Origin: Oscillospiraceae bacterium
GTDB lineage: Bacteria > Bacillota > Clostridia > Oscillospirales > Ruminococcaceae
NCBI GenBank assembly: GCA_009782265.1
Contig: WRJM01000004.1
Location: forward strand, 1 to 37,323
Length of the DNA stretch: 37,323 nt
Direction of reading: 5' to 3'
Part shown: positions 15,554 to 27,181 of the stretch, piece by piece
Layout of the letters: each line of letters begins with the position of its first letter
How positions within the stretch are numbered: the first letter of the stretch is position 1
Position numbers and translations under genes: made by a program
Notes under the pieces: model-generated
Seen by the model: only the letters and a program-made list of their open reading frames with translations
What the model was told of the DNA's origin: nothing
The model's database searches: none

Positions 15554-16006
15554 ATGGATAAATTAAAAATATATTTTGATAATTGTTGTTACGGCAGACC
15601 TTTTGACGATTTATCAATAGGAATGAACGGGTTGGAAGCAACTGCTAAAATGTATATTCAATCGTTAGTGAAATTTAATAGTCTTTATTTATATTCCTCG
15701 TTTATGACTTTCCGTGAAATAAAAGATATTCCTTATGTAAGCATAAAAGAAAATATAACAAACTATGTTAATGAATATTCATCATATTTTATAAGTGATG
15801 AACGTAAAAATGATGTTAAATCCATTTCAGAAGATATAATGAAAACAGGAATAAAGAAAAAGGACGCTACTCATTTAGCTTGTTCAATAATCGCTGAATG
15901 TGATTATTTTATAACAACTGATAAACGCGTACTTAATTATAAAACGGATAAAATAAATATAGTAAATCCAATCGATTTTTTGAAAATATGGGAGGAAACA
16001 AAATGA
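15554..16006 (+). CDS. PIN-domain protein, probable type II toxin ribonuclease
   Basis: 150 aa. It begins with the PIN signature strand KIYFDNCCYGRPFDD (Asp9), has acidic residues Glu28 and Glu55 in helices, then KKKDATHLACS (Asp104) and YFITTDKRVLNY (Asp123), and ends INIVNPIDFL. This is the layout of four-acid PIN nucleases, and the CC-RPFDD version is frequent in gut Firmicutes. VapC-like toxins cleave RNA and are held in check by a small partner. The stop overlaps the next start as ATGA, so the downstream gene is the likely antitoxin. Driven by a consensus promoter. Base composition is more AT-rich than in the flanking operons, consistent with acquisition. Confidence 0.8.
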   Translation: MDKLKIYFDNCCYGRPFDDLSIGMNGLEATAKMYIQSLVKFNSLYLYSSFMTFREIKDIPYVSIKENITNYVNEYSSYFISDERKNDVKSISEDIMKTGIKKKDATHLACSIIAECDYFITTDKRVLNYKTDKINIVNPIDFLKIWEETK

Positions 16007-16260
16007 ATGAAAATATTCAAGTAATTGAAAACGCTCAAATTTCTGCTATAATGAGTGCAGGAATGAAATTACTGCGCGAAAATCTCGGTTTAATCGAATG
16101 TGAGCTTTTTGTAAGCAATATAAGCCAAAATCGTTTTGATTACACGAAATGGCGTGAAAATCTTTATGAAGATATGTCGCTTGATGAACTTTTAGACAGT
16201 GCGGCAACTTATATGAAAGAACACCCCGAACTTGTGCCTAAAAATGCAAAGATTATCTAA
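16003..16260 (+). CDS. Probable antitoxin partner of the PIN protein
   Basis: 85 aa from the ATG at 16003, with GGAGG (15991-15995) 7 nt upstream; it overlaps the PIN stop codon by 4 nt (ATGA). The protein has the run SAGMKLLRENLGLIECELFVSNIS, then RFDYTKWRENLYEDMSLDELL and a C-terminal helix. Small proteins with L...LG....E.F...I....DYT.WR.......S.DE are often found next to PIN genes, hence the call. Coupling, order and size fit; no DNA-binding motif is evident. The order toxin first, antitoxin second is the reverse of most VapBC loci. Confidence 0.65.
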   Translation: MNENIQVIENAQISAIMSAGMKLLRENLGLIECELFVSNISQNRFDYTKWRENLYEDMSLDELLDSAATYMKEHPELVPKNAKII

Positions 16261-16266
16261 CACAAT

Positions 16267-16302
16267 AACCGCCCGAATGTTTAAATTCCGGGCGGTTTTT
16301 CC
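16267..16302 (+). terminator. Terminator of the PIN module
   Basis: AACCGCCCGAAT (16267-16278) pairs with ATTCCGGGCGGTT (16285-16297, one bulged C) followed by TTTT. Its right arm coincides with the start of direct repeat copy B. Confidence 0.8.
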
Positions 16303-16342
16303 TTGATGATGTCAATGGGGGGATTTCGTGGTCGTCTGTCAT
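16289..16342 (-). pseudogene. Remnant of the rpiR N terminus
   Basis: From an ATG at 16342 the sequence reads MTDDHEIP, matching MTDDHGIP of the intact gene at 15374. One G of a run is missing (six instead of seven on the plus strand), shifting the frame, after which the out-of-frame translation still shows IDIIKEK. About 18 codons remain before the terminator of the PIN module. Confidence 0.7.
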
Positions 16343-16407
16343 GTAACGATTCCTTTCGCTTTATAAACCTATAATTCAATAATACACTATTTTTTAAAAA
16401 AGCAAGT
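16289..16407. repeat. Direct repeat, copy B (diverged rpiR 5' end plus leader)
   Basis: Second copy of 15320-15437, diverged by substitutions and small indels. It lies downstream of the PIN module and includes what was the rpiR start and leader. Confidence 0.75.
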
Positions 16408-16419
16408 ATGGCGAAAAAT

Positions 16420-16650
16420 TTAATCTTTGCTGAAAATATACTGATATGAAACATTGAGCGCATATTTTAAACTGAATAAAGTATCAACAGACATATTCAC
16501 TTTTCCTGCTTCTATACCATATAAAAAACTTTTGCTTATTCCCGCTCTTCTCGAAAGTTCTGTTATTGACCAGCCAAGTTCTTTTCGTCTTTCTTTAATT
16601 CTGCGCCCGATAGTGGTTATAAAATCCTTATAATCTTTAAAATTGTTCAT
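16420..16650 (-). CDS. XRE-family HTH regulator
   Basis: 76 aa, essentially one helix-turn-helix domain: IGRRIKERRKELGWS, ITELSRRAGISKSFLYGIEAGK and VDTLFSLKYALNV. It is the Cro/C1 type. GGAGG stands 5 nt before the ATG. It is divergent from a ribbon-helix-helix gene at 16752, and its own consensus promoter lies between them. It probably represses this divergent region. There is no partner toxin next to it, so it may be a leftover of a mobile element or TA system. Confidence 0.85.
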   Translation of the reverse strand: MNNFKDYKDFITTIGRRIKERRKELGWSITELSRRAGISKSFLYGIEAGKVNMSVDTLFSLKYALNVSYQYIFSKD

Positions 16651-16754
16651 TTTTTACCTCCTGTATATCCATAAATTAGATATATATAATAGATATAGAT
16701 ATAATATCACAATTATGATATATTGTCAATATCAAACATTGGAGGTAAAAAATG
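16648..16754. promoter_or_regulatory. Divergent control region with mirrored ribosome sites
   Basis: CATTTTTTACCTCC (16648-16661) and GGAGGTAAAAAATG (16741-16754) are a perfect 14-bp inverted repeat, so both divergent genes start with the identical ribosome site and start codon. The AT-rich middle contains several GATAT/ATATC repeats, likely operator material. Confidence 0.7.
16701..16729 (-). promoter_or_regulatory. Consensus sigma-A promoter of the XRE gene
   Basis: On the minus strand TTGACA (16729-16724), 17-bp spacer, TATTAT (16706-16701). The start would be near 16694, about 44 nt before the ATG. Confidence 0.8.
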
Positions 16755-16925
16755 TTTACGATTACGAAAAAGAATAAAAACACAACTATTCCGGTCAGTA
16801 TAAGGTTTAATGAAGAATTACACGCAAAAATAAAAGAATTCACAGATAAGCATGATGTTTCTTTTAATTCATTAGTATTGCAGTGCTGTGAATACGCGCT
16901 GGACAATTATGCGGAAAACGAGTAG
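16752..16925 (+). CDS. Small ribbon-helix-helix (Arc/CopG-like) protein
   Basis: 57 aa with GGAGG 6 nt before the ATG. After a basic start (MFTITKKNKN) comes TTIPVSIRFNEELHAKIKEF, a beta strand then helix, and HDVSFNSLVLQCCEYALDN, the second helix, which is the Arc/CopG fold. Proteins of this kind act as dimeric DNA-binding antitoxins or plasmid/ICE regulators. Divergent from the XRE gene. The TAG stop codon is part of a palindromic repeat that begins at 16922, so the C terminus may have been trimmed or altered by that insertion. Confidence 0.75.
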   Translation: MFTITKKNKNTTIPVSIRFNEELHAKIKEFTDKHDVSFNSLVLQCCEYALDNYAENE

Positions 16926-16946
16926 GAGCGGCAATCTGCCGCCCGA
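16922..16946 (+). repeat. Palindromic GTAGGGG repeat, copy 4, supplying the RHH stop codon
   Basis: GTAGGAGCGGCAATCTGCCGCCCGA: stem GGAGCGGCA/TGCCGCCC with a short loop. TAG at 16923-16925 ends the ribbon-helix-helix gene. Confidence 0.75.
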
Positions 16947-16964
16947 AAAATTAAAACGATTTTA

Positions 16965-17035
16965 TGTAGGGGACGGCGTCCCGAAAATAAACCGGTCAAA
17001 TTCAATAGGGGACGCCGTGGGCGTCGTCCCCTACA
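16965..17035. repeat. Double palindromic GTAGGGG repeat, copies 5 and 6 head to head
   Basis: TGTAGGGGACGGCGTCCCGA at the left; GGGGACGCCGTGGGCGTCGTCCCCTACA at the right in inverted orientation (17008-17035, given as two blocks: GGGGACGCCGTGGGCG and TCGTCCCCTACA). The pair would fold as one long hairpin. It fills the non-coding stretch before the VTC gene. Confidence 0.75.
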
Positions 17036-17134
17036 ATTGTAAACCAGTATAAAAATAGTACCCAAAAATAAAATAATCGTACCAAAAAGCAAAAAAAGCT
17101 TGAAATATAATCCGGTTTGTGTTAAACTTACAAT

Positions 17135-17857
17135 ATGTTTACACAAATTTTACATAACACCTCCCAGAAATTACGGCATGAACGAAAATTCGCGCTGAAT
17201 TACGGGGTGTACGAGATTTTTAAAAGACGCTGTAACGCGGTGATGAAGCGGGATGAGTATTCAATCGGAGAGGGCTACAGAATCACCAGCCTGTATTTTG
17301 AAGATATTTACCGCACTGCTTACAAGGATAAAGTCGGCGGATATTACAAACGGCGTAAATTCAGAATCAGAGCTTATAATATGAATCCGGACAGAATTGT
17401 CTTAGAGGGCAAGGTAAAAGAAGGCGAGCACGTTTATAAAACAACCGCTCTTCTGACACAGGAGGAATATGAAAAGCTGCTTCGCTGTGACTACGGCTTC
17501 TGCGCCGACCGGAAAGAACTGCACGGTTTTTATGTCTGGGCGAAAAGCACAAACCTGAAACCTGCTGTGATTGTGGATTATTACAGGGAGGCTTTCACGG
17601 AAACAGCGGGGAATGTGCGGATTACGTTCGACAGGGATATTTCGGCGGGATTCGGTTCAGCCGATATGTTTAAAGCGGATTACTCGCCCGCTTATGAATA
17701 TGTTGTTATGGAAATAAAGTTTGATGAATTCCTCCCGCCTTATATTCAGGAGTTGTTTTCAGGCTTTGCGCTTACGGAAGAACCGATTTCAAAATATTTA
17801 ATATGCGCAGATACCGCTTCACAACGCAGAATACAACAGGTTTTAGGGGTTATATAA
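17135..17857 (+). CDS. VTC-domain (polyphosphate polymerase-like) protein
   Basis: 240 aa. The motifs of the VTC/tunnel metalloenzyme fold appear in order: RHERKFAL at the N terminus, YRITSLYFED, YYKRRKFRIRAYN, IVLEGKVKEG, KPAVIVDYYREAF, VRITFDRDIS, YVVMEIKFDEFLP and ISKYLICAD. These supply the basic residues and Glu of the tunnel that binds triphosphates in yeast Vtc4. Bacterial members are commonly next to a DUF4956 membrane protein, as here, and often to CotH kinases. The pair is thought to act at the cell envelope, but the exact reaction is not established. Start: the ATG at 17135 has no clear ribosome site; a TTGAAA-17-TAAACT promoter ends about 7 nt before it, so the message may be leaderless or nearly so. 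Confidence 0.85.
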   Translation: MFTQILHNTSQKLRHERKFALNYGVYEIFKRRCNAVMKRDEYSIGEGYRITSLYFEDIYRTAYKDKVGGYYKRRKFRIRAYNMNPDRIVLEGKVKEGEHVYKTTALLTQEEYEKLLRCDYGFCADRKELHGFYVWAKSTNLKPAVIVDYYREAFTETAGNVRITFDRDISAGFGSADMFKADYSPAYEYVVMEIKFDEFLPPYIQELFSGFALTEEPISKYLICADTASQRRIQQVLGVI

Positions 17858-17900
17858 TTTTTATTAACACATACGGAAAATTTATGGAGGTTACTAAAAG

Positions 17901-18590
17901 ATGTTCAATTTAAGTTTAGTTTCGGAAATACGCGATTTAATTTCGGAAAGTTTTTCAGATTTGGAGTTGTACCAAAGCCTTTCACCGGCGCGCATTATCG
18001 TTGCGCTCGGTACAGCGGCACTGTGCGGATTAGTGATTTACTTAGTCTACCGCTTCTTTTACCGCGGCATTGTCTACAGCGAAAATTATAATATCCTGCT
18101 TGTGCTTGTAACGGTTGTGACTGCTTTTATTATTAACACCATCAGCGCGAACCTTGTGCTTTCGCTCGGTATGGTGGGTGCGCTGTCCATTGTACGTTTC
18201 CGCTCAGCAATCAAAGACCCGCTTGACGTCGGCTTTCTGTTCTGGGGAATCGCGGCGGGGGTTACAACGGGTGCGGGACTGTATTTTACCGCGCTGTCGG
18301 GAACAGCTTTTATCGCCGGACTTTACATTATTCTGACTTTCCTGAAGAAAGATAAAAAAAGCTATCTGCTGATTATTAAATACGCTGTAAAAGCGGAAAG
18401 TGAAATTAATAACGCGCTTGCTTCGGTAAGCTATAAGCTTAAAAATAAAACCGTTATGAACGAAATAACCGAGCTGACGATTGAGATAAAGGTCAAGAAA
18501 AACGACCCGTCGGCGGCGAAAAAATTCGGGGATATTGACGGGGTTGATACGGTGACGCTGTTGGAATACAGCGGGGAGTATATTAATTAA
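17901..18590 (+). CDS. DUF4956 membrane protein
   Basis: 229 aa, with GGAGG 10 nt before the ATG. Predicted membrane segments are at about residues 31-52, 63-85 and a long hydrophobic region 90-150 holding two or three more. The most conserved part of the family, GMVGALSIVRFRSAIKDPLDVGFLFWGI, is present between them (residues about 91-118). The C-terminal third is a cytosolic alpha/beta domain. It follows the VTC-domain gene after 43 bp, and this pair is a recurrent bacterial neighbourhood. It probably forms the membrane part of the VTC system. Function not known. Confidence 0.88.
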   Translation: MFNLSLVSEIRDLISESFSDLELYQSLSPARIIVALGTAALCGLVIYLVYRFFYRGIVYSENYNILLVLVTVVTAFIINTISANLVLSLGMVGALSIVRFRSAIKDPLDVGFLFWGIAAGVTTGAGLYFTALSGTAFIAGLYIILTFLKKDKKSYLLIIKYAVKAESEINNALASVSYKLKNKTVMNEITELTIEIKVKKNDPSAAKKFGDIDGVDTVTLLEYSGEYIN

Positions 18591-18596
18591 TAACAG

Positions 18597-18625
18597 TTGA
18601 CATTTTGATTAATCCTTGTTATAAT
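18597..18625 (+). promoter_or_regulatory. Perfect consensus promoter of the small-peptide RNA
   Basis: TTGACA (18597-18602), 17-bp spacer, TATAAT (18620-18625). Start expected near 18632. Confidence 0.9.
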
Positions 18626-18702
18626 TAATTTGCGGCGCAAGCCGTCAAAGGCAACTTAACGGTTAGGCGGTTGGCTGAACCTTCCGAGAGGAGGTGAGGC
18701 GT

Positions 18703-18771
18703 ATGGAATTGATTATAACATTTCTCGTACTATATTTAATTTTCATTATAATCAAGGAAATAAAAAAATAA
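18703..18771 (+). CDS. 22-aa hydrophobic peptide, candidate type I toxin
   Basis: ATG at 18703 with a full AGGAGGT site (18689-18695) 7 nt upstream. The peptide starts MELIITF, has one membrane-spanning stretch of Leu, Ile, Phe, Val and Tyr (residues 3-17) and ends KEIKK. Such a short single-helix peptide with a charged tail resembles membrane-acting type I toxins. Its mRNA has the long-range end pairing and ribosome-site hairpin typical of them, and an antisense promoter faces it. It is too short for standard gene callers. Alternatives are a leader peptide or an accidental ORF in a structured RNA, but the perfect ribosome site and the promoter argue against chance. Confidence 0.6.
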   Translation: MELIITFLVLYLIFIIIKEIKK

Positions 18772-18846
18772 ACCGCCCCACGACCAAATGTAAGCGGTTT
18801 ATTATCATTACTTAAAGGTCAACCGTCTAACAGTTGCCTTTGTCTA
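18762..18846 (-). ncRNA. Predicted antisense RNA (candidate antitoxin)
   Basis: Promoter TTGACA (18881-18876), 17 bp, TAAAAT (18858-18853) on the minus strand gives a start near 18846. The hairpin 18801-18769 followed by seven T gives an end near 18762. The roughly 85-nt RNA is complementary to the last codons and 3' UTR of the small-peptide mRNA, including its 3' pairing arm. Layout resembles txpA/RatA. Confidence 0.6.
18769..18801 (-). terminator. Terminator of the predicted antisense RNA
   Basis: TAAACCGC (18769-18776) and GCGGTTTA (18794-18801). On the minus strand a T-run (18768-18762) follows. The left arm overlaps the peptide stop codon. Confidence 0.75.
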
Positions 18847-18852
18847 TTTTTT

Positions 18853-18881
18853 ATTTTAACATATATTTTTTGTTTTGTCAA
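18853..18881 (-). promoter_or_regulatory. Consensus promoter of the predicted antisense RNA
   Basis: Minus-strand TTGACA (18881-18876), exactly 17-bp spacer, TAAAAT (18858-18853). Confidence 0.8.
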
Positions 18882-18894
18882 CATAAATAAAAAT

Positions 18895-18923
18895 AACCGC
18901 CGCGTTTTAAAAACGCGGCGGTT
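18895..18923 (-). terminator. Terminator of the bactofilin gene
   Basis: AACCGCCGCGTTTT (18895-18908) and AAAACGCGGCGGTT (18910-18923) form a perfect stem; ATTTTTATTT follows on the minus strand. Confidence 0.85.
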
Positions 18924-18945
18924 AAATATATTCATTAACTGTCCG

Positions 18946-19878
18946 TCATTCCGCAATACTAATGGATTCAGGGAAAATATTCCTGCTCTCTTCCTTATTC
19001 AGGAACGTCGTGCTGACATACCCTTGAATAATCGCGCCGTCGTCAACCGTAATCGTAGACGCGCTGATGTCCCCGAAAATCACCGAATCGCCTTTCAGTT
19101 CCGCTTTCCCGCCGACTTCAAGATTACCCTTGATTTTACCGTTGACCATTGCGTATGTAGACACAAGGTCGCCGATTAACAGGGTGTCGCGCCCCATGGT
19201 AATATTGCCTTTCATGCGGATATTTCCTTGAATCTGCGACGTAAGCATTTGCGCGTTATTGCAGGTAAGATTACCGACAATTTTACCGTTAAGCTCAATG
19301 TTCTTTGTGGTTTCAATATCGCCCCGTACATTTCCGTCAACGTTCATATTCGCAAACGAACGGATATTGCCCTCAATGACCGTGTTTTTTGAAATAACCG
19401 TCAGCTCGTCGCCCAATCCGTCGTCGCCGTTGCCAAGCGAAGCGTTGAACGCCGGTACAATCCCGGGTTCTGTCATACCTAAGCCGCCAAGTCCGCTTAT
19501 ATTGGGTTCTGCGGAATTGCCCGCAGTGCCGGATTCGCCCTGCGGAACCGAAAACAAGGGCGGTACGGGGGGAGGTGTTGCATCCTGCGCTTCCGTATCA
19601 AACCCGGTTGGAACGGCTTGTTCAGTTTGCGTTCCCTGCGAAGCGGGCGGGATTTGCGCAAGCACAGACGGAAGCTCCGCCGGCGTTACCTGAATCGGCG
19701 GTGCGGATATTTTGCTTTCCGCCGCAGGTACTACCGATTTTTCGGCTGTTTCTGTTTCGATGGCGCGGCGTAAATCATCTACCTTTGAGGTTTTATTTTT
19801 ATCCTGTGTTTCGGGCTGGCTTTTTCCGCCTCCTGTGAGTTCTTTAACCGCCTGCGTGAAATTCTCTTTGATTCCCAT
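18946..19878 (-). CDS. Bactofilin (polymer-forming cytoskeletal protein)
   Basis: 310 aa from the ATG at 19878; an upstream in-frame TTG overlaps the AAAGGAC ribosome site and is not the start. The N-terminal half is disordered and rich in Pro, Gly, Ala and Gln. From about residue 165 the bactofilin beta-helix begins: TVISKNTVIEGNIRS, then six-residue steps with Gly and hydrophobic residues (VDGNVRGDIETTKN, LNGKIVGN, IQGNIRMKGN, VNGKIKGNLEVGG, ELKGDSVIFGDISAS). Bactofilins polymerise into filaments at the membrane and guide cell shape, wall synthesis or sporulation. The long disordered N-terminal region is more than most members have. The upstream polysaccharide deacetylase reads the same way and may be co-transcribed. 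Confidence 0.88.
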   Translation of the reverse strand: MGIKENFTQAVKELTGGGKSQPETQDKNKTSKVDDLRRAIETETAEKSVVPAAESKISAPPIQVTPAELPSVLAQIPPASQGTQTEQAVPTGFDTEAQDATPPPVPPLFSVPQGESGTAGNSAEPNISGLGGLGMTEPGIVPAFNASLGNGDDGLGDELTVISKNTVIEGNIRSFANMNVDGNVRGDIETTKNIELNGKIVGNLTCNNAQMLTSQIQGNIRMKGNITMGRDTLLIGDLVSTYAMVNGKIKGNLEVGGKAELKGDSVIFGDISASTITVDDGAIIQGYVSTTFLNKEESRNIFPESISIAE

Positions 19879-19926
19879 TTTTATAAGTCCTTTCAAAGTT
19901 GCTGTTGCCGATTTTTTACTCTTACG

Positions 19927-21063
19927 TTAAAATTGTACGGGTTCTGTTTCGGGTCTGATAATGCTGAACGTATATCCTCTTGCGTCGGCGGTCAGCGATT
20001 TTAATATATCGTCCATTACGTAAACCGTGTTTGCACCGCCGTGCCGGTCATGGAACAGAACAACCGAACGGTTTTTACCGGACACGCCGTTAATAACCAA
20101 ATCCATCATGGTCGTCCAGTTGGCGTCGTCTGCGTCCCTGCTGTCCACATTCCAGTCATAGTAGACAAAGCCGCGCCTTGTCATTTCTTCAATAATATCT
20201 TTATAAATATGTGTGTTGAAATCGTTTTTGCTTCCGCCGGGGAAACGGAAAAGATAAGGCTTATAACCGGTCTGCTCGTAAATTAAATTAAAAGCTTGGT
20301 TGAAATCATCAAGATACGCTTCCACGCTTGCGTAAATATCCCTGTAAACATGCGTCATGGTATGCACGCCGATTTCATGCCCCGAATCAAGGATTGTATT
20401 TAAAAGGTGCCTGTAATTTACATTATTATCATCAAATGCGCCTACGAAAAAGGTTGCTTTAACATTATACTTATCAAGATACCTGAGAATATCGGTGGTA
20501 TGCCTTGAAGGTCCGTCGTCAAAAGTAAGGTAGATATATCCGGAATCGTCCATATAGCTTTCCGGCGGCGTAATATCCGCGTACAGGTGCGGGAAAAGAG
20601 CTAAATAAGGGCTTTCCGGTTCAGCGGGCTCTGCAGGCTCGTCCGGCTCGGGAGGAACAGGTTTTTCTTCGTTTCCGCCGTTATTCGGTTGGGGAGTGCT
20701 TTTATCCGGATTTTTATCCTCATTATCGTTGACGCCGTCAGCGTTTGCGGAGGTGTCGGTGCTTTCAAGTGCGTCAATAATATCCCCGAAAGCTTCCTTT
20801 TCGCTTTGGTACATAGTATTTACCAAATCTTTGCTGTCAATTCCAAGATTCTTTAAAATAATCAGAATTTCGGAAGAATCGCCGCTGTTAAAATTATTCA
20901 GTGCCTGAAGCGCGGACTTGTCCGAGTTCAGTTCTTCGATTCTGCGGGATTTTTCATCGCTTCCGAGCGCAAGAAACACAGTCGCAGCCGTAAGTCCCGC
21001 GATAATTATTAGTATAATCATTATAATCAGATGTTTGAAAAATCTTACGCTTCCGAGATACAA
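19927..21063 (-). CDS. Membrane-anchored polysaccharide deacetylase
   Basis: 378 aa. The start is TTG at 21063, supported by GGAGG 8 nt upstream; no ATG precedes the membrane anchor (residues 10-32). A coiled, acidic stalk and a Pro/Glu linker (135-150) lead to a NodB domain (about 170-370). Catalytic motifs: TFDDGPS (Asp182 and metal ligand Asp183), GVHTMTHVY (His234, His238), RFPGGS, YDWNVDSRD and VLFHDRHGG. This family removes acetyl groups from cell-wall glycans, often making peptidoglycan resistant to lysozyme. It lies directly before bactofilin, which can localise wall enzymes. Confidence 0.9.
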   Translation of the reverse strand: MYLGSVRFFKHLIIMIILIIIAGLTAATVFLALGSDEKSRRIEELNSDKSALQALNNFNSGDSSEILIILKNLGIDSKDLVNTMYQSEKEAFGDIIDALESTDTSANADGVNDNEDKNPDKSTPQPNNGGNEEKPVPPEPDEPAEPAEPESPYLALFPHLYADITPPESYMDDSGYIYLTFDDGPSRHTTDILRYLDKYNVKATFFVGAFDDNNVNYRHLLNTILDSGHEIGVHTMTHVYRDIYASVEAYLDDFNQAFNLIYEQTGYKPYLFRFPGGSKNDFNTHIYKDIIEEMTRRGFVYYDWNVDSRDADDANWTTMMDLVINGVSGKNRSVVLFHDRHGGANTVYVMDDILKSLTADARGYTFSIIRPETEPVQF

Positions 21064-21189
21064 TACGGCTTCCTCCGGTTAAAAATTTAGTACATATATA
21101 ACAATAATACTATAATATAACCGAATTGTCAAGAAAAATCGTATAATATAAGGATTTTCATAAAAATAGTGTCGTTTTCCGGCGAATTT

Positions 21190-21633
21190 TTACATTTTTT
21201 TTTCCGGAAAAGACCGCGCCAGCTCATCACAGCGTTCGTTTTCAGCGTGTCCGGCGTGTCCTTTAATCCATGTGAATTTTACGGTATGAAACGCGCATAA
21301 ATCCAAAAGCTTCTCCCATAAGTCCGAATTCAGCGCGGTCTTTTTATCGCTTTTAACCCAGTTATTTTTCCGCCAGCCTTCCGCCCAGCCTTTTTCAATC
21401 CCGTCAACGACATAACGCGAATCGGTCTGCACGAGTACCGTACAGGCGCGTTTCAGCACGGAAAGTGCTTCAATCACGCCGGTAAGCTCCATGCGGTTAT
21501 TGGTGGTGTCGGGCGCAAAGCCGGAAAGTTCTTTTTCGTGTTCTTTAAAGCGGAGAATTGCGCCCCAGCCGCCGGGGCCGGGATTGCCGGAGCACGCGCC
21601 GTCGGTGAAGATTAGGACGGGTTCAGGGTTCAT
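21190..21633 (-). CDS. rnhA: Ribonuclease HI
   Basis: 147 aa. Catalytic residues are intact: Asp11 in [16 protein letters not shown], Glu49 in NNRMELTGV, Asp71 in VQTDSRYV, His126 in KGHAGH and Asp136 in RCDELAR. It degrades the RNA of RNA-DNA hybrids in the cytoplasm. The length is typical of E. coli-type RNase HI without an N-terminal hybrid-binding domain. AAAGG stands upstream of the ATG. It lies after the P-type ATPase gene, separated by a partial palindromic repeat. Confidence 0.95.
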
Positions 21634-21661
21634 GGGGTTGTTTACCTTTCTGTAAACTTTA

Positions 21662-21681
21662 TGTAGGGGACGACGCCTACG
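21662..21681 (+). repeat. Partial palindromic GTAGGGG repeat, copy 7
   Basis: TGTAGGGGACGACGCCTACG next to the ATPase stop codon (21682-21684). It holds the first half and truncated second half of the family hairpin. Confidence 0.6.
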
Positions 21682-24024
21682 TTATTTTTTAAACTTTTCA
21701 AAAACAATTTCCGCAAGCTTCGGTAAAAATATACAGGCGGGAATCATCCCCGCGCAGAGGAAAAATGTAACGCCGTGCATTTGCGGCGTGAACTGCGAAA
21801 CCGCAAGTAAATCATCAAAAAACTGCACGGCAAATGAAAATAATAAGCCGCACGCCGTAATCAGAAACAGCCTTTTCCGGTTAATCGGGCGGCAAATTCT
21901 GCAAAGCACCGCATAAGAAGCCACACCGAGAATAATCGTTGCGGCGGTACGGGTTTCTTCAAACGAAAATTGCCCCCACGCGGCAAAAACGGCAAGCAGA
22001 CTAATCCCTAAAGTCCCGCAAAGCCCGTAAGGAACAGCTTTCATTAAAACATTTTTAATAAATGAACCTTTAACAAGATTAAAATTTTTCTCAAGTGCTA
22101 AAATAAAGCTCGGCAAGCCGATAAAAAGCCCGTTAATCAAAGTCATCTGAATCGGAATAAAGGGATAAGGAGAGGACAGAAAGATAAAAATAACCGCAAG
22201 AATCAGCGAATAAACGGTTTTAGACAAAAATAACGCCGCGCTTCTTTCAAGGTTGTTGATGCTTCTTCTGCCTTCCTCAACGGCTTTAGGCAGGGAAGAA
22301 AAGTTGTTGTCAAGAAGCACAAGACCGGAAACATTCCGCGCCGCTTCCGAGCCGGACTGCATGGCGACCGAGCAATCGGCTTCTTTTAAAGGCAGAACGT
22401 CATTGACGCCGTCCCCGACCATGCCCACGACATGTTTCTTTTTAAGTGCTTTTATGATTTCAAGCTTCATCTGCGGCGTAACCCGTCCGAAAATCGTGTG
22501 TTGCTCCGCGATTTGCGGCAGACGCGCCATTTCTGTTTTATTATTAGGGTCGAAGCGGCTCATGTCTATGATTTTATCGGCGTTTTTAACGCCGGCGGCA
22601 AACGCGGTGCTTTTTACGGTCAGCGGATTGTCGCCGGAAATGATTTTAACCGTTACGCCCTGCTTTTCAAAAAAACGCAGTGTTTTCTTGGCTTCGGGGC
22701 GGACAACGTCACTGATAACCAATAAAGCGACCGGTTCAAGATTGTCGGGCAATTCATTGCTTTTAAAAAAGACCGGCGAATAAGCAAGAACTAAAACCCT
22801 TTTTCCTTCAAGATGAGCGGGGATTTTCTGCGGCTGTTTAAATACAAATTCCATTGCACCGAGTATGTAACTGCCTTTATTTTTGAAGCAAGCGCCGCTC
22901 CATTTCCGCGCACTGGAAAAAGGCACAGTTTTAACGGCTTTCCAGTCGATATTTTTCATGCAGGTTTTTTTAATGGCAAGCGCGGTGGGGTTCTTGTCCG
23001 GCAGAACCCACATCAGGGCGCAAAGGATATTTTTGATTTCTTCCATGCCGGTATCGCTTAGAGGCAGAACTTCCTCAAGGAGCATATCTCCGGTTGTGAT
23101 TGTGCCGGTTTTGTCAAGGCAGAGAACGTCAGTTCTTGCCAATGTTTCCGCGCAGTACATATCGCGGGCAAGGGCTTTGTGCTTGGAAAGCCGCATGACG
23201 CTGATTGCCATAATGACGCTGATTAACAAAATCAGCCCCTGCGGAATCATGCCGATGACTGCCGCAACCGAGCTGTTGATTGCGTTGTTCAGGCTGTTCG
23301 CGCTTTCTTCTGTATAAAACAGGGATTTCAGAAGCAGAATAATTCCCACAGGGACTATAACGAAAGATAAAGCTTTTATGAATTTATCAACAGACCTCTG
23401 CATTTGCGATACGGATTTTTTTAATGTTTTCGCGCCTTTCATAATAGAAAAAGCAAAGCTTTCTTCTCCGATTCCGGTAATTAACGCCGCTGCTTCCCCG
23501 CAAATCACGAAACTGCCGGAAAGCAGGGTTGTGCCTTCGCTTTTGCCGACAGGGTCGCTTTCGCCGGTGACAAGGCTTTCATTAACTTCGATTTCACCGC
23601 TTAAAACCCTGCAGTCTGCAGGGATTTGCATACCTTCGGATAATAAAATCACATCGTCCTGAACAATCATGGAGGTTGGAATTTCGGTAATAACGCCGCC
23701 GCGCAGAACCCTTGCTTTTGCGGCGGAAAGCAGGGACAGCTTGTCTGTAACGCGCTTGGCGCGTATTTCCTGCGTAATGCCGATAGCGGTATTGGCAATA
23801 ATCACGCCGAGGAACATCATATTTTTATATTCACCGGTGAAAAAAACCGCGGCGGCAAGAAAAATATTGAGCAGGTTGAAAAAAGTCAGCGAATTTGTAC
23901 GGATAATTTCGCTGATTGACTTTGAGGGGATATTGCAATCGCCGTTTATTTTACCGGCTTTTTCTCGTTCTTGGACTTCAGAAGAGGTGAGTCCTGTCAA
24001 ATTTTGGTTATTCAGATGGCTCAT
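21682..24024 (-). CDS. Cation-transporting P-type ATPase, CtpE-like
   Basis: 780 aa. The P-type ATPase motifs are TGES (residues 153-156), the membrane motif IPQGL (260-264), DKTGTIT with the phosphorylated Asp304, and VGMVGDGVNDVLPLKEADC in the hinge. There is no N-terminal metal-binding domain. The PQGL version instead of PEGL or CPC, together with the long LARTDVLCLDKTGT segment, recalls Mycobacterium CtpE, a calcium transporter, and related ATPases of low-GC Gram-positives; substrate uncertain (calcium, magnesium or manganese). The start ATG at 24024 has no ribosome site. It coincides with the expected transcription start of the symmetric promoter, so the mRNA appears leaderless. Divergent from the Nudix gene. 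Confidence 0.88.
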   Translation of the reverse strand: MSHLNNQNLTGLTSSEVQEREKAGKINGDCNIPSKSISEIIRTNSLTFFNLLNIFLAAAVFFTGEYKNMMFLGVIIANTAIGITQEIRAKRVTDKLSLLSAAKARVLRGGVITEIPTSMIVQDDVILLSEGMQIPADCRVLSGEIEVNESLVTGESDPVGKSEGTTLLSGSFVICGEAAALITGIGEESFAFSIMKGAKTLKKSVSQMQRSVDKFIKALSFVIVPVGIILLLKSLFYTEESANSLNNAINSSVAAVIGMIPQGLILLISVIMAISVMRLSKHKALARDMYCAETLARTDVLCLDKTGTITTGDMLLEEVLPLSDTGMEEIKNILCALMWVLPDKNPTALAIKKTCMKNIDWKAVKTVPFSSARKWSGACFKNKGSYILGAMEFVFKQPQKIPAHLEGKRVLVLAYSPVFFKSNELPDNLEPVALLVISDVVRPEAKKTLRFFEKQGVTVKIISGDNPLTVKSTAFAAGVKNADKIIDMSRFDPNNKTEMARLPQIAEQHTIFGRVTPQMKLEIIKALKKKHVVGMVGDGVNDVLPLKEADCSVAMQSGSEAARNVSGLVLLDNNFSSLPKAVEEGRRSINNLERSAALFLSKTVYSLILAVIFIFLSSPYPFIPIQMTLINGLFIGLPSFILALEKNFNLVKGSFIKNVLMKAVPYGLCGTLGISLLAVFAAWGQFSFEETRTAATIILGVASYAVLCRICRPINRKRLFLITACGLLFSFAVQFFDDLLAVSQFTPQMHGVTFFLCAGMIPACIFLPKLAEIVFEKFKK

Positions 24025-24551: not shown

Positions 24552-24686
24552 TTCCGAACCTTGCTTACAGCTGTAAGCCCCGCGCAAGGCTGCCCTGCGA
24601 ACCATGTCAGGCGGGGAACCGAGCAGCATTAAGCGGTAAGCAGCTTGTGCCGCGGTAACGCTTGCGGCTGTATGGAAGGTTCGGAA
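24552..24686 (+). ncRNA. ffs: Signal recognition particle RNA (bacterial 4.5S type)
   Basis: The closing stem TTCCGAACCTT (24552-24562) pairs with AAGGTTCGGAA (24676-24686). The domain IV core is present: ATGTCAGGCGGGGAACCGAG followed by CAGCAT, with the GTCAGG and AGCAGC halves of the symmetric loop around a GGAA-type tetraloop. This is the Ffh-binding hairpin. It is about 135 nt, between the 4.5S size and the Bacillus scRNA. Its position directly before dnaX-ybaB-recR is the classic Firmicutes order. Ends are inferred from the stem. Confidence 0.88.
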
Positions 24687-26484: not shown

Positions 26485-26562
26485 TGTAGAGGCACCCCTG
26501 TGTGGTTGCTCGTTAATAATGCAGAAACATATTACGGGACGCCACGCAGGGCGTCCCGTACA
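26485..26562. repeat. Two palindromic repeats, copies 9 and 10, between ybaB and recR
   Basis: TGTAGAGGCACCCC, loop, GGTTGCTCG (26485-26512) is a diverged copy. ACGGGACGCC, ACGCAG, GGCGTCCCGTACA (26534-26562) is an inverted copy with a perfect stem. Confidence 0.7.
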
Positions 26563-26581
26563 ACCCCGAAAGGATTATAAA

Positions 26582-27181
26582 ATGTCCGAATACAACCCGT
26601 TACCGTTGGTTTTAGCCGCCGAGCAATTCGCCAGACTGCCCGGTATCGGCATGAAAACCGCCCAAAGACTCGCCTACCATATATTAACCATGCCCGCGGG
26701 TGAGGTTGAAATGTTCGCGGAAACCCTGATTACCGCACGAAAAACCGTCCGCTGCTGTTCGGTTTGCCGCAATTTCACCGAAAAGGAAACCTGCGCGGTT
26801 TGTTCAGACGAAAGACGCAATCAAAAATTGATTTGCGTGGTTGAAGCACCCAAAGACGTCACCGTGATTGAACGCACCGGCGGCTTTGACGGCGTTTATC
26901 ACGTTCTGCACGGCTTGCTTTCGCCTATGGAGGGAACAGGTCCGGAGAATATCCACATCAAGGAGCTGATGGAGCGGCTTGCCGGTGAGGTTGACGAAGT
27001 GATTATGGCGACTAACCCAACGATTGAGGGGGAAGCAACCGCAAGTTATATCAGCAGACTGATTAAACCGATGGGAATAAAAGTATCAAGATTGGCTTAC
27101 GGACTGCCTGTGGGAGCAAGCTTAGAGTTTGCGGACGATGTGACCTTAGTCAGGGCTATGGAGAACAGGAACGAAATATAA
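26582..27181 (+). CDS. recR: Recombination mediator RecR
   Basis: 199 aa from the ATG at 26582, which has AAAGGA 7 nt upstream. Helix-hairpin-helix LPGIGMKTAQRLAYHIL, four-Cys zinc finger C-x2-C...C-x2-C (CSVCRNF, CAVCSD) and a Toprim domain (ICVVEAPKDVTVIERTGGFDGVYHVL) ending in VPVGASLEFAD-type GLPVGASLEFADDVTL. RecR with RecF and RecO loads RecA on gapped DNA. Full-length and typical. Confidence 0.96.
   Translation: MSEYNPLPLVLAAEQFARLPGIGMKTAQRLAYHILTMPAGEVEMFAETLITARKTVRCCSVCRNFTEKETCAVCSDERRNQKLICVVEAPKDVTVIERTGGFDGVYHVLHGLLSPMEGTGPENIHIKELMERLAGEVDEVIMATNPTIEGEATASYISRLIKPMGIKVSRLAYGLPVGASLEFADDVTLVRAMENRNEI

Follow-up and report, generated by a model that had tools for sequence, protein, structure and literature searches.

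A probable type I toxin-antitoxin pair with a 22-residue peptide on a bsrG/SR4-like RNA framework in an Oscillospiraceae genome

Organisation of the locus

A 37,323-nucleotide stretch of DNA from an Oscillospiraceae bacterium (analysed as a whole and called the window here) carries, between its DUF4956 and bactofilin genes, two facing promoters with a 22-codon hydrophobic ORF on one strand and an antisense RNA gene on the other. The features of this locus are:

18597-18625, + strand: toxin promoter, TTGACA-17 bp-TATAAT, 12/12 match to the consensus, TG ahead of the -10
18631-18900, + strand: predicted toxin mRNA, start at about 18631-18632, placed from promoter spacing
18632-18645, + strand: 5' hairpin with a GCAA loop (fold prediction)
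about 18646-18675, + strand: 5' arm of a long-range helix, CAAAGGCAACTTAACGGTTAGGCGGTTGGC (fold prediction, pair counts, covariation)
18679-18695, + strand: hairpin sequestering the Shine-Dalgarno sequence (folds; helix 2 of the alignment, 90.9% of cells paired)
18689-18695, + strand: Shine-Dalgarno sequence AGGAGGT (read in the sequence)
18703-18771, + strand: 22-codon hydrophobic ORF, MELIITFLVLYLIFIIIKEIKK, ATG at 18703, stop TAA at 18769-18771 (ORF list, selection, alignments)
18758-18846, - strand: predicted antisense RNA (antitoxin), ~85-90 nt, start at about 18846 (promoter and fold)
18767-18803, - strand: antisense terminator hairpin, AATAAACCGC...GCGGTTTATT (sequence, pairing, family-wide stem count)
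18818-18842, + strand: 3' arm of the long-range helix, whose bases also specify the 5' hairpin of the antisense RNA
18881-18853, - strand: antitoxin promoter, TTGACA-17 bp-TAAAAT, 11/12, TG ahead of the -10
18894-18924, no strand assigned: strong near-perfect hairpin, terminator-like for the bactofilin gene (- strand)

The initial annotation of this DNA had described the facing promoters with their TTGACA boxes and 17-bp spacing, the hydrophobic ORF with its AGGAGGT, the GCAA and ribosome-site hairpins and an antisense terminator over the stop codon, and all of these recur in our analysis, the two hairpins as elements of predicted folds. The terminator hairpin overlaps the toxin stop codon and its T run (- strand) lies over the toxin Lys-Lys codons; it is absent from a simple terminator scan because its loop exceeds the length that the scan allows. 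As judged from these signals, the antisense RNA gene has its own promoter and terminator and is complementary to the toxin mRNA, whose 3' end may be set by the hairpin at 18894-18924, a possible terminator on the + strand as well, or by read-through.

The same signals recur across the family (43 loci). On the toxin side, the best promoter reaches at least 10/12 in 41/43 loci (3.0% of mononucleotide shuffles do so) and the antitoxin-side promoter in 43/43 (4.0% of shuffles), while a perfect antisense stem of at least 6 bp, followed by at least four T in 10, is present in 42/43, a count made without a shuffle control.

The surroundings of the window copy (15554-24024 and 26519-27178) encode a VTC domain, DUF4956, bactofilin, polysaccharide deacetylase, RNase H, an E1-E2 ATPase and RecR; no phage gene was found among the eight neighbouring ORFs scanned, of which ORF 15554-16003 matched nothing, and a blastn search of the window locus against phages and plasmids returned nothing, as did one of the related locus L163 against phages. 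A bacterial small SRP RNA lies at 24572-24669 (62.8 bits, Rfam).

The peptide family and the fold of its mRNA

Relatives of the 22-residue peptide are mostly 22-28 residues long (L026 reads to 38 and L028 to 36) and share the consensus MELI..FL.LY..L.II.E.KK in an alignment of 32 of 33 loci (A3), from which L030, with a peptide identical to that of L013, was dropped and in which L026 and L028 were trimmed to 22 residues. This composition points to a membrane peptide with one hydrophobic stretch and a basic tail, probably located in the membrane. Over codons 2-20 of the 33 loci, pN was lower than pS in 512/528 locus pairs (mean pN 0.34 vs mean pS 0.64), as expected of purifying selection on the peptide, and a 20-codon open reading is retained in frame 0 in 33/33 loci, compared to 0/33 in frame +1 and 21/33 in frame +2. 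The selection test is biased towards conserved codons because most of its loci came from a protein profile search, the five paralogues in the window's own genome having been found by blastn alone.

Two variations on the gene were seen within the family. In L004, L006, L010, L013, L038 and their relatives the toxin stop has shifted into the antisense terminator, and the terminator stem therefore encodes the C-terminus (NNRP.., NRP.. or RPP..). Members of the subfamily L015, L027, L039 and L040 have two Shine-Dalgarno sequences and a short ORF upstream of the toxin, possibly for translational coupling.

Neither Pfam nor NCBIfam holds a family above cut-off for the window peptide or the family members scanned, and PHROGs and PADLOC gave no match to the peptide. 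Fst and Ldr were not matched in the Pfam/NCBIfam scans at E<=10, nor was the Hok family in the Pfam scans of the window peptide and its relatives; six matches in a solved-structure search (E 0.06 to 0.17) were judged to be chance.

Within its own genome, blastn with the window locus recovers five complete paralogues plus a further copy limited to the 3' half (another hit, L008, looks like a chance match), and these copies are only 68-76% alike over aligned DNA. With a profile built from six peptides, seven copies were retrieved from this genome and real copies were seen in 9/99 genomes, all among the 60 of the same genus, after five of 14 matched genomes were dropped for want of the architecture. 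Of the weaker matches, L018-L022 (E 0.019 to 0.08), L050 and L051 were rejected on reading since the architecture was absent, and L027 and L028 were retained despite similar E-values because it was present. At the level of the order the profile matches 7/245 genomes (E<=0.01; nine before two were dropped), and at that of the phylum only the own genome among 299 (E<=0.003). A pattern scan of named genomes gave 14 stretches, eight of them in five Oscillospiraceae bins that we take, from the bin names, to be termite-gut MAGs; of these eight, L069 was read and the other seven were attributed to loci already read. L066 and L077 from the same scan, and the first viral pattern match, L080, were chance on reading, and the stretches L070, L073, L075 and L079 lie outside the set read.

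The predicted mRNA from 18631 to 18846 folds at -74.9 kcal/mol, compared to -46.6 +/- 3.8 kcal/mol for shuffled sequences (z -7.5; 0/200 as stable), the two folds computed for the predicted toxin mRNA giving z -7.8 and -7.5; the predicted antisense RNA also folds well (z -4.4; 0/200 shuffles as stable). In the window mRNA, bases 18646-18673 pair with 18818-18842, joining the 5' end to the 3' UTR and enclosing the ORF as one domain. The antisense RNA had originally been proposed to cover the 3' UTR, and it is indeed complementary there, but the conserved 5'-3' helix of the mRNA had been missed. Minimum-energy folds of the predicted mRNAs have at least 22 leader/3' UTR pairs in 41/43 loci, the two weak folders L049 and L057 having only 5 long-range pairs each.

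Covariation was scored on an alignment (A5) that takes 22 loci out of the 43, selected by length (<=236 nt) and excluding L004, L006, L032 and the weak folders L049 and L057, with a structure that RNAalifold had derived from the same rows and in which the core helix emerged unprompted. Changes on both sides were found at 12/16 pairs and 94.3% of cells pair, whereas 0/500 shuffles reach any of these measures and slid versions pair in only 28-56% of cells. Moreover, the two arms of a locus fit each other better than they fit those of other loci: mean pairing energies are -48.3 kcal/mol for cognate arms, -36.5 for non-cognate and -22.6 for mononucleotide-shuffled ones, and the own arm beats the average other arm in 32/33 loci (the exception is L036). 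Selection thus appears to act on the 5'-3' helix and on the ribosome-site hairpin, and the helix connects the sequence targeted by the antisense RNA with the leader, next to the ribosome site.

Reach of the antisense gene and the peptides that it accompanies

The antisense gene was modelled from an alignment of 35 of the 43 loci (A6), and the resulting model, R1, is sequence-only because RNAalifold gave no pairs on this alignment. R1 matches the window at 18756-18881 (E 3.2e-18, the window locus being in its training set) and has 13 matches in the own genome at E<1e-11. Seven of these, the window's included, accompany family peptides of 22-28 residues, three accompany different hydrophobic peptides (L124, L127 and L128), and three are antisense genes without a toxin ORF:

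L125, G000:C1:4846-4969
L126, G000:C16:10378-10499
L129, G000:C3:40685-40811

On reading, the promoter and terminator of these three are intact and the leader and whole toxin half are absent. The antisense RNA of L125 is 84% identical to that of the toxin at C2:22341, with whose mRNA it is predicted to pair at -119 kcal/mol (the cognate antisense RNA pairs at -165); no comparably strong partner emerged for L126 and L129 in the pairing prediction. The initial annotation had held that broken codons on a persisting RNA structure would indicate a non-coding RNA. No stop codon occurs within the first 20 codons of any of the 33 loci, but the three antisense genes do stand without a toxin ORF. A non-coding RNA with a chance ORF, which would account for the strong RNA structure, for these three copies and for the 13/61 wider loci that lack a qualifying ORF (see below), is nonetheless hardly credible in view of the pN and pS values and of the frame that is open in all 33 loci, and the own ORF-less copies lack the entire toxin half on reading, not just the codons.

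Beyond this genome, R1 matches 181/394 genomes of the order at E<=1e-3, 120 at <=1e-6 and 103 at <=1e-8; 77, 46 and 37 of 196 genomes of the class at the same thresholds; and 13/199 genomes of the phylum at <=1e-5, nine of them outside the class. In these order, class and phylum searches the copies per genome are to be read as "at least" values, and not all matches were checked, those between E 1e-6 and 1e-3 not having been read individually. One match from outside the class, L169 (E 7.2e-7), reads like coding sequence and counts as a false match. By these searches the antisense gene extends much further than the peptide.

Most of the R1 loci that were fetched from other genomes (48/61, own-genome loci being excluded) have a Shine-Dalgarno sequence and a hydrophobic ORF of 18-45 aa that ends in the terminator, an architecture present at 26/3880 control positions. 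The qualifying ORFs observed span 20-42 residues, the 42-residue one perhaps starting too early, and four of the 48 loci are members of the training set; the count was run on 59 loci, to which L169 and L170, without an ORF on reading, were added as misses. Beside the antisense gene in L165 and L175, both among the loci from these searches, lies a remnant like the end of a Hol_Tox peptide, without a start that has a ribosome site; toxins apparently decay while the antisense gene stays. In predicted viral contigs, 27/27 pattern stretches match R1, a result that is partly circular because the search pattern was derived from the R1 core, and 19/27 carry a hydrophobic ORF. The framework occurs in tandem at L015/L027, L059, L196, L210 and L216, the copies being separated by between a few hundred and a few thousand bases.

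To compare the peptides at R1 loci with known families, 20 of them, among which four came from viral contigs and three others from the own genome, were scanned against Pfam, and 8/20 pass the cut-off of Hol_Tox (PF16935, 23.3 bits): three in the first ten (L085 with 32.0, L101 with 32.5 and L122 with 27.6 bits) and five in the second (L163 with 46.5 and L176 with 48.8 bits, and the viral L206, L207 and L215 with 39-45 bits). The window peptide has no match to Hol_Tox, a profile-profile comparison of the two peptide families is likewise negative (hhalign probability 1.1), a search of the own genome with the Hol_Tox profile returns no match at E<=0.01, and among 15 relatives scanned only L055 gives a weak match (12.4 bits). 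The RNA framework is therefore shared with Hol_Tox-bearing loci, while the window peptide is not demonstrably Hol_Tox.

The locus is, in addition, an imperfect mirror image of itself, in that the toxin promoter and 5' arm, read on the - strand, resemble the antisense promoter and 5' end. R1 matches the window in this orientation at 18597-18680 (E 0.005) and does so in 7/10 toxin-bearing own-genome loci at E<=0.03, with similar E-values reached elsewhere in the genome. Alignments of the first ~60 nt of the mRNA with those of the antisense RNA score 13.5 on average, compared to 6.9 for shuffled sequences, and lie above every shuffle in 26/43 loci. A MITE-like mobile repeat, with the arms as terminal repeats and the ORF as incidental, would likewise be multicopy and would account for the inverted arms and for the promoters mirrored at the two ends. 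Such an origin is very improbable: selection acts at the level of codons, promoters and terminator are conserved, arm pairing is kept by compensatory and G-U changes, the promoters lie outside the arms, and the low identity of the own-genome copies (see above) is a further argument against it.

Another candidate is a small, conserved membrane peptide, controlled by an antisense RNA in a locus with the build of a type I pair but non-toxic at natural levels, such as a regulator of membrane proteins or a signalling peptide. The purifying selection on the peptide and the ordinary chromosomal context of the window copy, beside DUF4956 and bactofilin, would suit it, as would the fact that the framework is not rare in the genus: R1 matches at least eight same-genus genomes, with six listed as unmatched, so that within the genus the framework looks less patchy than the peptide family. 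The latter, by contrast, occurs in only 9/60 same-genus genomes. Of 14 relatives' loci around DUF4956, one (L181, in genome G019) also contains bactofilin, with gene order and orientation preserved, and its interval of 544 bases contains a possible 69-codon ORF and no R1 match at E<=0.01, which may reflect either loss or an unoccupied site, as one case fits both; at L180 an R1 match lies about 1 kb from the DUF4956 gene. Multiple and tandem copies, differing peptides on one RNA framework and copies in predicted viral contigs also argue against a non-toxic peptide. Owing to this patchiness, multicopy state, diversity of peptides and viral occurrence, a toxin-antitoxin pair fits better than a housekeeping peptide, which we regard as improbable.

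Taking these observations together, we tentatively raise the possibility that one RNA framework, consisting of the antisense gene and the mirrored start of the toxin gene and conserved as DNA across Clostridia and beyond, bears interchangeable toxin cassettes that range from 20-residue peptides to full Hol_Tox. The antitoxin terminator would double as C-terminal codons of the toxin, antisense genes without a toxin could protect against related toxins, and the antitoxin RNA would be the conserved heritable unit and the toxin its replaceable part.

Type I pairs of this layout are already known. New, as far as we have seen, are the 22-residue peptide family, the antisense gene as a conserved unit with differing peptides, the terminator that doubles as toxin codons and the toxin-less copies in this group; no prior description was found in the literature searched, in which coverage of subscription papers is thin. 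Because their peptides are very small and change rapidly, type I toxins easily escape searches, and here the antisense gene serves better as a search key (120/394 order genomes for R1 at E<=1e-6 vs 7/245 for the peptide profile at E<=0.01, on different samples and with R1 matches not all checked). R1 connects peptides that no protein family joins, Hol_Tox included, and its matches suggest that loci of this kind are very numerous in Clostridia and in predicted viral contigs. The copies without a toxin are a natural setting in which to ask if type I antitoxins are retained because they protect; orz of E. coli, reported in 2024, was the first antitoxin of this type to be confirmed without a toxin (PMC11264685, in excerpt).

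Proposed mode of action and comparison with known systems

The reading of the locus as a type I toxin-antitoxin pair, already put forward in the initial annotation, is well supported by comparison, through selection on the peptide and conservation of the antisense gene, and we hold it to be very probably correct. The best explanation that we can offer is that this type I pair combines a bsrG/SR4-like RNA framework and a minimal peptide, which we consider likely. Sequence and comparison show the genes with their signals, the conservation of peptide and helix and the predicted direction of the structural effect; transcription, toxicity, neutralisation and the role of RNase III are inferred, and the scheme would run as follows.

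The + strand promoter would give an mRNA of ~270-300 nt in which the Shine-Dalgarno sequence lies in a hairpin, the ~30 nt that follow the 5' hairpin pair with the 3' UTR, and a 22-residue membrane peptide is encoded. From the - strand promoter, an antisense RNA of 85-90 nt would start at the outer end of the 3' arm and end over the toxin stop codon. This RNA is fully complementary to the mRNA from the stop codon to the 3' arm, and their pairing would create a long duplex, presumably a substrate for RNase III as for txpA/RatA and bsrG/SR4; for bsrG/SR4, 3'-end pairing with RNase III cleavage has been described (PMC6562991, in excerpt). The antisense RNA would also draw the 3' arm out of its pairing with the 5' arm, and the latter could then refold and bury the ribosome site further, much as SR4 lengthens the ribosome-site stem of bsrG from 4 to 8 bp (same excerpt). 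Once antisense synthesis stops, the mRNA would be translated and the peptide would be expected to damage the membrane.

Degradation of the 3' duplex is probably the main control. Regarding the added closure of the ribosome site, opening the region from Shine-Dalgarno to AUG costs 9.8 kcal/mol with the native 3' arm and 11.4 with the arm mononucleotide-shuffled, the native cost being lower in 32/43 loci and higher in 3; with the 3' arm removed the cost is 11.2 kcal/mol, opening being harder in 31/43 loci and easier in 8. Since opening costs more without the native arm, losing the 3' arm tends to close the site, as for SR4/bsrG. At the window locus this closure is small (12.8 to 13.9 kcal/mol): the ribosome-site stem is unchanged when the 3' arm is removed and the 5' arm pairs with the stop-codon region. 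We therefore put forward ribosome-site closure only tentatively, as a suggestion of the folding model.

The toxin mRNAs of hok/Sok and aapA/IsoA likewise have 5'-3' long-distance pairing. In a scheme of that kind, the 5'-3' helix would silence the full-length mRNA, 3' trimming would activate it and the antisense RNA would neutralise the trimmed form. In favour of this reading, the helix is strongly conserved and closes the ORF into one domain, and removal of the 3' arm does ease opening of the ribosome site in 8/43 loci; two-step control is moreover described as common (PMC11228461, in excerpt). We regard it as unlikely because of the arm-removal and arm-shuffling folds, in which opening hardens in 31/43 loci upon removal and in 32/43 (vs 3) upon shuffling. 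The antisense RNA, too, targets the very 3' part that trimming would remove. Unlike in hok/Sok and aapA/IsoA, folding suggests that the helix here opens the ribosome site in most loci.

The pair of bsrG and SR4 (RF01412), of the TxpA/BsrG class of B. subtilis, shares with the locus the convergent genes, the antisense overlap at the 3' end, the ribosome-site hairpin, the small hydrophobic toxin and a long helix whose 3' part is the antisense target (PMC6562991, in excerpt). The layout of this type, with its 3'-end overlap, ribosome-site hairpin and 5'-3' main helix, is found at the window locus and in its family. The two differ in that the toxin has 22 aa here and 38 in bsrG, the antisense RNA a predicted length of about 85-90 nt here and 180 nt in bsrG/SR4, and in that the antisense terminator lies over the end codons of the toxin; unlike the prophage-borne bsrG/SR4, the window copy sits between ordinary chromosomal genes.

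At gathering score, Rfam finds nothing at the locus (only the SRP RNA elsewhere in the window) and, in 19 related loci, only a tRNA and a c-di-AMP riboswitch. Below that score, the BsrG model matches the window, on the expected strand, at 18644-18865 with 20.5 bits, short of its cut-off of 55 and with several unrelated Rfam families at equal or better E-values in this small search, and the own-genome locus L124 with about 22.4-23.3 bits, also below cut-off. BsrG is matched at E<=0.5 by 4/20 loci scanned and not by the other 16; L176 (49.4 bits), L166 (44.5) and L163 (43.7) come much closer (E 1e-8 to 4e-7), although all remain below 55. L176 and L163 are thus loci that pass Hol_Tox as peptides and resemble BsrG as RNA. 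The locus is filed under neither BsrG nor Hol_Tox because it reaches neither cut-off, and the original claim of a new locus without a recognisable family needs dividing: no Pfam or NCBIfam family stands above cut-off, but the antisense gene is common to Hol_Tox loci, two of them BsrG-like.

The C. difficile pairs CD2517.1-RCd8, CD2907.1-RCd9 and CD0956.2-RCd10 also have convergent toxin and antisense genes, and the type I toxins of this species, compared by description, a hydrophobic N-terminal part and a lysine-rich end (PMC6563280, in excerpt). The same excerpt gives type I toxin sizes of 28-60 aa for B. subtilis and 34-59 aa for C. difficile, and the peptide is, at 22 residues, shorter than these Gram-positive toxins, as had been remarked at the outset. 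The framework appears to work like that of bsrG/SR4, to which intermediates link it, with a divergent and minimal peptide.
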